Below, in pieces: positions 7,664-38,258 of a DNA stretch of 38,258 nucleotides (positions are counted from its first letter, which is position 1; the number at the start of each line of letters is the position of its first letter). Source of the stretch: Proteiniborus ethanoligenes (GTDB lineage: Bacteria; Bacillota; Clostridia; Tissierellales; Proteiniboraceae). A program made the position numbers and the translations under genes. Under the pieces are notes generated by a model. It did not search any database, had not been told where the DNA came from, and worked only from the letters and a program-made list of their open reading frames with translations. The DNA lies in the NCBI RefSeq assembly GCF_900107485.1, contig NZ_FNQE01000032.1, positions 1 through 38,258 of the forward strand, read 5' to 3'.

Positions 7664-7820
7664 GATATATAATAGTATGAAAACAAAGTAGAAGTTTCCG
7701 CTTCTCACCTTACAGCAAAGGCTTATAGGGTTAATATTTACGATTTAATCAGCGTTTTATATGCTTTTTATGTAGTGTAATATAGCGGATAGTTTTACTA
7801 TCCGTTTTTGTTTTTTTAAT
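7664..7820 (+). promoter_or_regulatory. infC operon leader with attenuator (L20-type ribosomal-protein leader)
   Basis: The transcribed leader has a short hairpin (AGAAG 7690-7694 with CTTCT 7701-7705), then a region ending in a perfect 7-bp terminator stem (CGGATAG 7786-7792 with CTATCCG 7798-7804) and a T-run (7805-7817), all before the infC ribosome binding site. In Firmicutes this operon is controlled by L20 binding its leader, which stabilises premature termination. The architecture fits, but I have not matched the L20 binding site base by base. Confidence 0.65.
7786..7817 (+). terminator. Attenuator terminator in the infC leader
   Basis: A perfect 7-bp stem with loop TTTTA, followed by TTTTTGTTTTTTT. 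It sits 33 nt before infC with a strong promoter upstream, so it is regulatory rather than the end of a gene. Confidence 0.85.
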
Positions 7821-12009: not shown

Positions 12010-12114
12010 ATGTTTAACGCAGAATTTTTCTGGAAAATGTTTGAGCTTACTGGCTCTGTCAACGCCTATCTAATATATAAGAAGCTTATTATGAACTGTC
12101 AAATTAATATCTAA
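12010..12114 (+). CDS. yqzL: YqzL-like small protein
   Basis: A 34-aa ORF, ATG to TAA, with GAGAGGTG 8-9 nt upstream. The peptide begins MFNAEFFWKMFELTGSVNAY, matching the very small YqzL family of Bacillales and Clostridia, in which NAEFFWKxFExTGSVxAYL is the conserved core. The function is unknown. Here it occupies the space between a strong promoter and the pheST T-box and is probably on the same transcript. Six residues after KKLI (MNCQIN region) extend past the usual end. Confidence 0.8.
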   Translation: MFNAEFFWKMFELTGSVNAYLIYKKLIMNCQINI

Positions 12115-12119
12115 AAGTA

Positions 12120-12349
12120 ATGACAGAGAGAGTATGTATTTTAATGCTTAAAGAGAGAAGGTGCCGTGGCTGGAAGCACTTTTATGTGAAGAAATACAGA
12201 AGTTCCCTCTTGAACTGCTAGGTTGAAATAGTAGTAAACTTAGGCCGGTTTTTTACCGTTAACATAGTGAGTGATTTGATTTATTATCAAATTATTAGGG
12301 TGGTACCGCGGAAAACTTCGTCCCTTTGTGACGAGGTTTTTTTATTTTT
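12120..12349 (+). promoter_or_regulatory. T-box riboswitch, specifier UUC (Phe), upstream of pheST
   Basis: The conserved T-box AGGGTGGTACCGCGG is at 12297-12311; its TGGT bulge pairs with the ACCA end of uncharged tRNA. In stem I the specifier-loop 3' side reads GAAG-TTC-C, with TTC at 12203-12205, between helices AATAC (paired with GTATT near 12134) and CCTCTT. UUC matches tRNA-Phe (GAA) and the downstream synthetase. Uncharged tRNA-Phe should stabilise the antiterminator and switch on pheST. Confidence 0.93.
12314..12348 (+). terminator. T-box terminator of pheST
   Basis: A 9-bp stem, AACTTCGTC (12314-12322) and GACGAGGTT (12330-12338), with one G-U pair, followed by a T-run. Its 5' arm immediately follows the T-box, so the antiterminator excludes it. 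Confidence 0.9.
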
Positions 12350-22708: not shown

Positions 22709-22727
22709 TTAAAGCATTAAATAATTA

Positions 22728-22960
22728 AATTCAAAGATGAGGAAAGTAAGCTGTAGTCATTGTCCAAGCGAGTCAGGTAAGGTGGGAGCTGACACATAGA
22801 TACATCTGAAGAGAGCCTCGGAGAAGCTATCTGAAATGAGTAGGATGTGCCGATACCCAGCGTTAATGGGCTTGAGTGGGTATGCTTATTAAGCTTACCA
22901 ATTAGAGTGGTAACACGGGAAATATCTCGTCTCTTTCTTGAGGCGAGATTTTTTTATTTT
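22728..22960 (+). promoter_or_regulatory. T-box riboswitch, specifier AGA (Arg), upstream of argS
   Basis: Stem I contains the typical AAAGTA-AGC start (~22745) and a CAAGCGAGTCAGG...GGTGGGAGCTGAC apical region. The specifier loop reads GAAG-AGA-G, AGA at 22812-22814, followed by CCTC that pairs with GAGG near 22739. The T-box is a variant, AGAGTGGTAACACGGG (22904-22919), still carrying TGGT for the ACCA tRNA end. AGA is the preferred Arg codon of AT-rich genomes and fits the downstream argS. Confidence 0.9.
22924..22960 (+). terminator. T-box terminator of argS
   Basis: A 10-bp stem with one G-U pair, ATCTCGTCTC (22924-22933) and GAGGCGAGAT (22940-22949), loop TTTCTT, then a T-run. Confidence 0.9.
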
Positions 22961-37087: not shown

Positions 37088-37666
37088 ATGGCAGAGGTAA
37101 AAAACATATTGTTTGTAGGGGTAGGAGGGCAAGGGATCATACTTGCTAGTAAAATATTATCCAGAGGACTTATAGATGCCGGATATGATGTAAAAATGTC
37201 TGAAGTTCATGGGATGGCACAACGAGGAGGAAGTGTAACCACTCAAATCAGATATGGACAAAAGGTATATTCGCCTATCATTGGAGTTGGGCAGGCTGAT
37301 GTAATAGTTTCTTTCGAAAAGATGGAAGCCATGAGATGGATAGAATATCTAAAACCAAAAGGTAAGTTAGTTGTTAATGATTATATGATACCACCTGCAC
37401 CAGTATTATCTGGGAAAGTAGAGTATCCTAAGGAAATCATAGAAGATTTACAGAGCAAAGTTAACACAATAAGTATAAAAGCTGCAGAAGAAGCCAAAAA
37501 ACTAGGAAATATTAAGACTTTGAATATTATAATGTTGGGAGCACTTATTAAAGCTATGGGTATTGATGAAATAGATTGGGAAAAGGTTATAGGGGAAGAA
37601 GTCAAAGATATATATGTAGATATAAATATCAAAGCATTTAATGTAGGGAAAATGCTAGTTGATTGA
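37088..37666 (+). CDS. iorB: Indolepyruvate:ferredoxin oxidoreductase, beta subunit
   Basis: 192 aa. The beta/gamma-type domain begins NILFVGVGGQGIILASKIL, the hallmark of this subunit family, with SEVHGMAQRGGSVTTQIRYG following at ~37-56. It pairs with IorA to make the active 2-oxo acid oxidoreductase. ATG 37088 lies immediately after the iorA stop (37086); GGTGAG in the iorA end serves as its ribosome binding site. The in-frame GTG at 37079 lies in that site. Translational coupling ensures equal subunits. Confidence 0.93.
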   Translation: MAEVKNILFVGVGGQGIILASKILSRGLIDAGYDVKMSEVHGMAQRGGSVTTQIRYGQKVYSPIIGVGQADVIVSFEKMEAMRWIEYLKPKGKLVVNDYMIPPAPVLSGKVEYPKEIIEDLQSKVNTISIKAAEEAKKLGNIKTLNIIMLGALIKAMGIDEIDWEKVIGEEVKDIYVDINIKAFNVGKMLVD

Positions 37667-37674
37667 TAGAATAT

Positions 37675-37704
37675 ATAGAGCTAATGGATATCCATTAGCT
37701 CTAT
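37675..37704 (+). terminator. Large palindrome after iorB (terminator-like)
   Basis: A perfect 15-bp inverted repeat with almost no loop, centred on 37689/37690 (TAGAGCTAATGGAT and its complement). The tail is ATTAAGTAATTT, a poor U-run, so termination may be inefficient, or the palindrome may bind protein. Confidence 0.5.
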
Positions 37705-37737
37705 TAAGTAATTTGAGAGATATATTTTAAAAAGCTA

Positions 37738-37766
37738 TTGACTTAATGAATTAAATTTGGTATATT
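37738..37766 (+). promoter_or_regulatory. rRNA operon promoter P1
   Basis: TTGACT (37738-37743), a 17-bp spacer and TATATT (37761-37766). The predicted start (~37773) falls at GTCG, the first base of a small hairpin. Confidence 0.7.
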
Positions 37767-37798
37767 TAAAAAGTCGTCACCAAGCGACAAAAAGCATT

Positions 37799-37861
37799 AA
37801 AAAAGATTTTCAAAAAACTTTTCAAAAACATGTTGACACGAAAGAATAAAAATGTTAACAT
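37799..37861 (+). promoter_or_regulatory. rRNA operon promoter P2 with UP-like element
   Basis: TTGACA (37833-37838), a 17-bp spacer and TAACAT (37856-37861). It is preceded by an A/T-tract region (37799-37830) like an UP element. The predicted start is near 37868, again at GTCG. Confidence 0.75.
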
Positions 37862-37866
37862 AAGAA

Positions 37867-38110
37867 AGTCGCCTCTTGAGAGATGGCGAGAAGAAAGCCC
37901 TTCGGGGAGCTAATAAAGTTGGTCCTAAGGGACACAAAGAACTAAAGCCCTTCGGGGAGCTAATAAAGTTGGTCCTAAGGGACACAAAGAACTAAAGCCC
38001 TTCGGGGAGATAATAAAGTTGGTCTTTGAAAATTGAACAGTGAGAAGCCAGTAAAAAGGTTTACAGTCGAAAGACACAAAAACCAAACAATTTTAATGAG
38101 TAGGAAAACT
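37867..38110 (+). promoter_or_regulatory. 16S rRNA leader with tandem hairpins and boxA-like element
   Basis: The leader opens with a hairpin (CGCC 37870-37873 with GGCG 37885-37888, plus TCT/AGA). It then holds 2.6 tandem 50-bp repeats and, after 38020, GTCTTTGAAAATTGAAC, a sequence usual before 16S and in rRNA spacers of Firmicutes and similar to the boxA antitermination signal. 38040-38110 probably holds the processing stem. Confidence 0.65.
37894..38024 (+). repeat. Tandem 50-bp repeat, 2.6 copies, in the rRNA leader
   Basis: The copies start at 37894, 37944 and 37994, with period exactly 50. Copies 1 and 2 are identical; copy 3 stops after 31 bp and has one change. Each unit begins AAAGCCCTTCGGGG (a CCC-TTCG-GGG tetraloop hairpin). 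Full units contain a second hairpin (GTCC-TAAG-GGAC inside AGTT/AACT). Confidence 0.95.
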
Positions 38111-38111
38111 T

Positions 38112-38258
<147 letters not shown>

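Follow-up and report, generated by a model that had tools for sequence, protein, structure and literature searches.

The leader of a 16S rRNA gene of Proteiniborus contains a tandem array of 50-bp units built from two alternating predicted hairpins, A and B, and the number of units differs between rrn operons of the same genome. On balance we consider it probable that a two-hairpin spacer module has been expanded in this leader, its element B belonging to a family located at TTGG(T) words, with growth at a direct repeat, gene conversion between operons, and the units tolerated as a spacer. The scatter of B through the genome makes it look like a spreading spacer module, not a proven control switch.

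The array is located in the window, i.e., the whole analyzed stretch of 38,258 nt, which is contig C32 of the source genome (Proteiniborus, hereafter G000), a draft in 69 contigs. At 37894–38024 TRF identifies a tandem array with period 50, 2.6 copies and score 255, the top one of its 10 rows. Units 1 and 2, compared directly, coincide at 50 of 50 positions, so an earlier note, made from the sequence alone, was right that copies are exact over 50 bp. Exact repeats within the 300-nt leader reach 66 nt, compared to a mean of 8.8 and a maximum of 14 for the longest repeat in 500 dinucleotide shuffles. The array is ordered A-B-A-B-A, where A comprises CCC-UUCG-GGG and an AT-rich spacer, and is followed by GTTGGTC and then by B, GUCC-UAAG-GGAC (Table 1). 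The direct repeat GTTGGTC (at 37918, 37968, and 38018) bounds the array blocks: it is found 5' of hairpin B in every unit, and it also opens the boxA strand, the third copy continuing as TTTGAAAATTGAACAGTGAGAAG. Unit 3 matches over 31 nt (37994–38024), with C>A at 38010 as the sole difference, and the match stops exactly with GTTGGTC (38018–38024), giving way to TTTGAAAATTGAAC. That the third copy is broken where boxA takes over, as the earlier note put it, agrees with this end point, but the GTTGGTC at which the match ends also precedes B in each unit.

The array is situated between the downstream promoter-like site and the 16S rRNA gene, the latter cut after 147 bases by the contig end. Intrinsic termination was considered and ruled out, as the + strand of 37660–38258 contains no terminator-like site and the two found within the array belong to the – strand. 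No Rfam family matches the array at the gathering threshold. Elsewhere in the window, T-box leaders are observed at 12111–12328 and 22725–22937, and an L20 leader at 7680–7819.

Table 1. Features of the 16S leader region, in window positions
Feature	Position	Strand	Details	Basis
Upstream promoter-like site	37738–37766	+	TTGACT-17-TATATT	Consensus scan
Downstream promoter-like site	37833–37861	+	TTGACA-17-TAACAT	Consensus scan; relatives arranged alike
Predicted hairpin near transcript start	37869–37889	+		Folds
Element A, copy 1	37894–37917	+	CCC-UUCG-GGG at 37898–37907, AT-rich spacer	Sequence
GTTGGTC (37918–37924) and element B, copy 1	37918–37943	+	GUCC-UAAG-GGAC at 37922–37933; B word 37921–37935	
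Element A, copy 2	37944–37967	+		Sequence
GTTGGTC (37968–37974) and element B, copy 2	37968–37993	+		Sequence, B-word search
Element A, copy 3	37994–38017	+	C>A at 38010	Sequence
Third GTTGGTC, leading into presumed boxA and predicted leader strand of the 16S leader–trailer helix	38018–38047	+	GGTCTTTGAAAA at 38021–38032	Alignments; duplex with G002 trailer
16S rRNA gene, 5' part, cut by contig end	38112–38258	+		Rfam RF00177

Three 16S starts are assembled in G000 (on C32, C42, and C2); every leader contig ends within the 16S gene, and the rRNA bodies are missing. The array is upstream of 16S and not in the 16S–23S spacer, which is missing from this assembly. Repeat counts of the three assembled leaders are 2.6 for C32 and C42 (both A-B-A-B-A) and 1.6 for C2 (A-B-A), i.e., the copy number varies among operons. 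The word RAGCCCTTCGGGGAG is found at 8 places of G000 with up to one mismatch allowed, all of them exact and all inside the three leaders. Based on variants inside A, two array types are distinguished, GAGCT, GAGCT, GAGAT and GAGAC, GAGAT. Upstream of the array, C32 and C42 share no block, yet from its first base they are identical over 315 bp; C32 and C2 are identical over 124 bp upstream, yet differ by one unit. As identity blocks between operons are mosaic, and unit number varies both within the genome and between species, the suggestion that the array expanded and was exchanged between rrn operons is supported. The G000 leaders may be explained by a single 50-bp duplication with one or more inter-operon transfers, and a deletion in C2 would explain them as well. 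Throughout, the sequence GGTCTTTGAAAA, which we take to be boxA, is unchanged, in three of three G000 leaders and in six of six leaders of the congeneric G002.

G002, a complete genome in one contig of 3,881,360 bp, is the only other genome of the genus compared that is complete. Five of its six leaders have a B-A module (with one B degenerate), and the sixth (L057) has A alone. The UUCG loop is not conserved, the G002 loops being UAAC or UAAU, the degenerate B aside. One leader, L054, has two GTTGGTC 51 bp apart, the second being the start of boxA; among the six it is the only one with an exact upstream GTTGGTC, as L055 and L056 have ATTGGTC, L058 and L059 diverge more, and L057 is without B. 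In G001, the leader is truncated where boxA begins, leaving a 125-nt stub with no repeated 6-mer. In other genera of the order (Caloranaerobacter, Anaeromonas, and others), leaders likewise have a promoter, a hairpin near the start, and then TTGGTCTTTGAAAA or its near variants, but no A/B module is seen in them and boxA is only 15–43 nt past the –10 box, compared to 63–109 nt in G002 and 109–160 nt in G000 (16 leader rows, of which L016 and L095 are one locus, leaders without a boxA pattern, e.g., L021, being left out). For L057 and C42, where the script took a weaker –10 box (giving 44 and 141), the values 63 and 160 were determined by hand.

A survey covered 102 distinct leaders of at least 120 nt (70 labels, 69 genomes, with L016 inside L095), namely three from G000, six from G002, the G001 stub, and 92 from other genomes. 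They were reached by exact patterns and are a part of the matches listed, at least 68 of 196 genomes having a match. No such array is found in the 92 leaders of other genomes, and long exact tandem copies are seen in G000 only; the survey, which scored each leader by its longest exact repeat, would miss diverged arrays. Outside G000 the longest exact repeat is 29 nt (L147), the next being 15. This 29-nt repeat (G248, C108), with copies 104 bp apart, contains TTGACA upstream of 16S and resembles a duplicated promoter region. A-like and B-like words occur together in G000 and G002 alone. A first pattern scan of named genomes retrieved nothing; a shorter pattern retrieved 19 stretches from other taxa, with no module seen among the matches listed. 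In 150 genomes of the order, GTTGGTCYNNNNGGAC is found at 46 places in 35 genomes, and a 16S start was present in only two of the 30 loci fetched, from G000 and G002. One G002 16S gene (L005, near C1 443400) has a longer insert near its 5' end, GTCATCCTGAGCG..AAGGATCT, which another copy (L026) lacks.

Element B is not restricted to leaders. Its word GGTCCTNNNGGACAC is found at 26 places in G002, seven in G000, two in G001, one in G050, and two in G056, and at none in G063, G013, and G031, with the reversed word giving zero in each of the eight genomes searched. Extended by one base, the B word occurs in 7 of the 150 genomes searched from the order, at 41 places in total, compared to four for the control. 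The 26 places in G002 comprise three rrn leaders, 22 copies that were examined, and one left out (near 3004755). TTGG is immediately 5' of B in all 22 non-leader copies, and in 19 of them as AAATTTGG. Most G002 copies are within a repeat of approximately 165 bp, which also exists without B and is widespread in the genus (at least 28 matches in G000, 29 in G001, and 25 in G002; 11 of 60 relatives in all). In G000, among the matches listed, the B part is missing in nearly all (pieces correspond, e.g., to 2–54 and 88–166 of the query), the only one running through it being on C26. Among the loci compared, the joint lacks B and reads AAATTTGGTG in nine distinct segments, and in 24 it includes B and reads AAATTTGGTC, a contrast between repeat copies with and without B and not between orthologous sites of a strain pair. 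Of 15 inserts that could be measured, 13 have the same length, and TTGGT flanks the insert on both sides in these cases.

Similar framing is observed in G142, where TTTGG is 5' of all seven B copies and GGTTGG closes six. In three other genera (G050, G056, and G067) the B word is between or beside tRNA genes, preceded by TTGG in G050 and G056 but not in G067, and one place in G000 (C24) is seemingly unrelated to the repeat. Element A, on the contrary, is not dispersed: six of its seven places in G002 are rrn leaders. Short hairpin sequences occurring at many intergenic places are familiar as REP-like and miniature elements. The B word resembles these in its many dispersed copies (26 places in G002, zero for the control), and differs in being located at TTGG(T) and within stable-RNA transcripts. 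For three loci of the dispersed repeat, no Rfam family is found at E up to 1, riboswitch and snoRNA matches being outside the repeat; in one locus (L224, 321–401) there is a partial match to the molybdenum cofactor riboswitch on the minus strand.

In the leader, too, TTGGT precedes B, and the TTGGT with which boxA begins marks the end of the module. Aligned with the dispersed repeat, the leader modules have local scores of 42 (L054) and 39 (L055) in G002 and 36 in G000, each reached in none of 1000 shuffles, the whole-module scores resting mostly on the searched hairpin word. Beyond B, position-by-position comparison of the flank yields 9 of 14 agreements in G002 (14–15 of 1000 shuffles) and 6 of 14 in G000 (57 of 1000), while the local score of the 3' flank gives no support, being matched by 874–899 (G002) and 328 (G000) of 1000 shuffles. 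The part after B in L055 resembles a tRNA-array copy of G056 (L086; 9 of 1000 shuffles), that of L054 less so (73 of 1000), and likeness to the second G056 copy is weaker (102 and 576 of 1000). The tRNA-array copy of G050 strongly matches the dispersed repeat beyond B (0 of 1000 shuffles). Since the flank scores are mixed and A is not dispersed, we regard kinship between leader and dispersed B as likely only, mainly on the grounds of the hairpin word and the TTGGT framing.

The predicted RNA folds only partly agree with the suggestion that each unit contributes a C(UUCG)G tetraloop and a second hairpin. Folded alone, copy 3 of A is predicted to form C(UUCG)G with three G–C pairs (–4.2 kcal/mol), being the predicted hairpin directly 5' of boxA, but it is the only copy to do so: for copy 1, which shares its sequence with copy 2, closing by AGC/GCU is slightly better (–5.0 kcal/mol). 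In the minimum-energy fold of the whole leader, A1 is paired with A2 across B1, and the folding energy z-score is only –2.05, two of 200 shuffles being equally stable. The 16S trailer is absent from the G000 assembly, and the G000 leader was paired with the G002 trailer; the predicted duplex has –41.1 kcal/mol, compared to –44.5 for the G002 leader strand and –13.4 for an array copy with the same trailer. Between G000 and G002 leaders, none of eight pairs is altered on both sides, i.e., no compensatory changes are found. When G000 is compared with each of the six G002 leaders, stem positions agree more often than others (8/11 to 15/16 vs. 10/29 to 26/41, p = 0.022–0.040), in six non-independent comparisons with stems picked from the very sequences compared.

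The closest precedent is the 16S–23S spacer of Clostridioides difficile. According to two reports (PMC3090617; PMC4164361), it consists of blocks of 33, 53, and 20 bp bounded by a 9-bp direct repeat, block number varies among operons, slippage and recombination are proposed by the authors, and secondary structure of the repeats and spacers is reported as unconserved. Both systems are rrn spacers composed of blocks that a short direct repeat delimits, with operon-dependent block number; the C. difficile blocks, in contrast, are between 16S and 23S, and their direct repeat TTAGCACTT is unrelated to GTTGGTC. A study of the E. coli boxB-boxA-boxC leader (PMC10250234) describes a hairpin 5' of boxA, near the transcript start, as observed here; it reports that the leader–trailer helix is essential and that leader deletion including boxB has little effect. 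E. coli, by this account, has one boxB, in contrast to two alternating repeated hairpins in Proteiniborus, where B is dispersed and boxA is predicted to be inside the leader–trailer helix. Among the titles listed by our literature search, whose coverage leaves out most subscription papers, none concerns tandem units in the leader of a bacterial 16S gene.

These observations are consistent with the following scenario. B would be a member of a family of short modules, most of them immediately 3' of TTGG(T) words in the order's spacers, and presumably related by descent and mobile. The likeliest course is that a short hairpin module became established at the leader TTGGT(C) that opens the boxA and processing-helix strand, and was later duplicated; because it was sited there, it would be flanked by a short direct repeat approximately 50 bp apart. 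The GTTGGTC repeat is well suited to slipped mispairing or unequal recombination, which may have added whole 50-bp units at it; slippage and recombination have been put forward for the 9-bp C. difficile repeats too. Gene conversion could then have taken the longer leader to another operon, as copy numbers and mosaic identity suggest. In the RNA, the units would be between the transcript start and boxA, in the place of E. coli boxB. Since in the E. coli account the helix is essential and the boxB-containing deletion mild, we infer that they are a tolerated structured spacer, leaving boxA and the helix intact and discarded with the leader. A bolder version, possible but doubtful, is that a hairpin module of approximately 40–50 bp moves in the order, settling at TTGGT and leaving TTGGT on both sides. 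It would have landed inside the dispersed repeat, among tRNA genes of arrays, and in ribosomal operons at the boxA TTGGTC, where its own flanking repeat would have driven tandem growth to an extent that varies by operon.

Several other readings have to be weighed. A and B might have arisen in the rrn leader itself, dispersed B resembling the leader B through convergent evolution of a short stable hairpin or through outward copying, and the expansion at GTTGGTC being retained; the near-confinement of A to leaders and the flanks past B, unlike the dispersed repeat by local score, would fit such an origin, but the same letters surround the stem, the same TTGGT framing is seen on both sides, and the whole-module scores exceed those of 1000 shuffles, though mostly due to the searched word, and we consider it unlikely. 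That the number of units might control pausing or, as the earlier note suggested, antitermination or processing seems improbable to us. The array is indeed immediately upstream of boxA and the helix strand, its stems are better kept than other bases in the non-independent comparisons, and the –10 to boxA distance is longer in both Proteiniborus genomes than elsewhere; against that, the loops vary, B is dispersed and is missing from one G002 leader, and deletion of boxB in E. coli had little effect (PMC10250234). A leader-specific regulatory hairpin is disfavored because B is dispersed in the genus and the UUCG loop is not conserved.

An artefact is conceivable, as leader contigs of this draft all end in 16S with rRNA bodies missing, and the common tail of C32 and C42 might stem from the same reads. 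However, the two array types have distinct internal variants and the C42 array adjoins unrelated upstream DNA; collapse or assembly error in the array is unlikely, and an artefactual unit number or contig assignment very improbable. If expansion of a spacer module is right, a dispersed hairpin word is tied to length variation of an rRNA leader, and direct-repeat-driven plasticity, known from the 16S–23S spacer, occurs before boxA as well. Natural leaders with varied unit number would then be material on whether the stretch from start to boxA matters, and a possible strain marker.

The dispersed repeat is also seen near other stable-RNA genes. In G000 (C49:60–200, and the minus strand of C28 near 47080 and 46810; L122, L123), copies without B are 5' of 5S at two places, and on C28 a copy is 3' of 5S; a 30-mer of the repeat is present at five places with up to two mismatches. 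In G002, a copy with B is between tRNA-Asp and tRNA-Val genes (L221, C1 416700–417100), and two regions (L225 and L238) contain nested or tandem repeat copies with two B words in one region.
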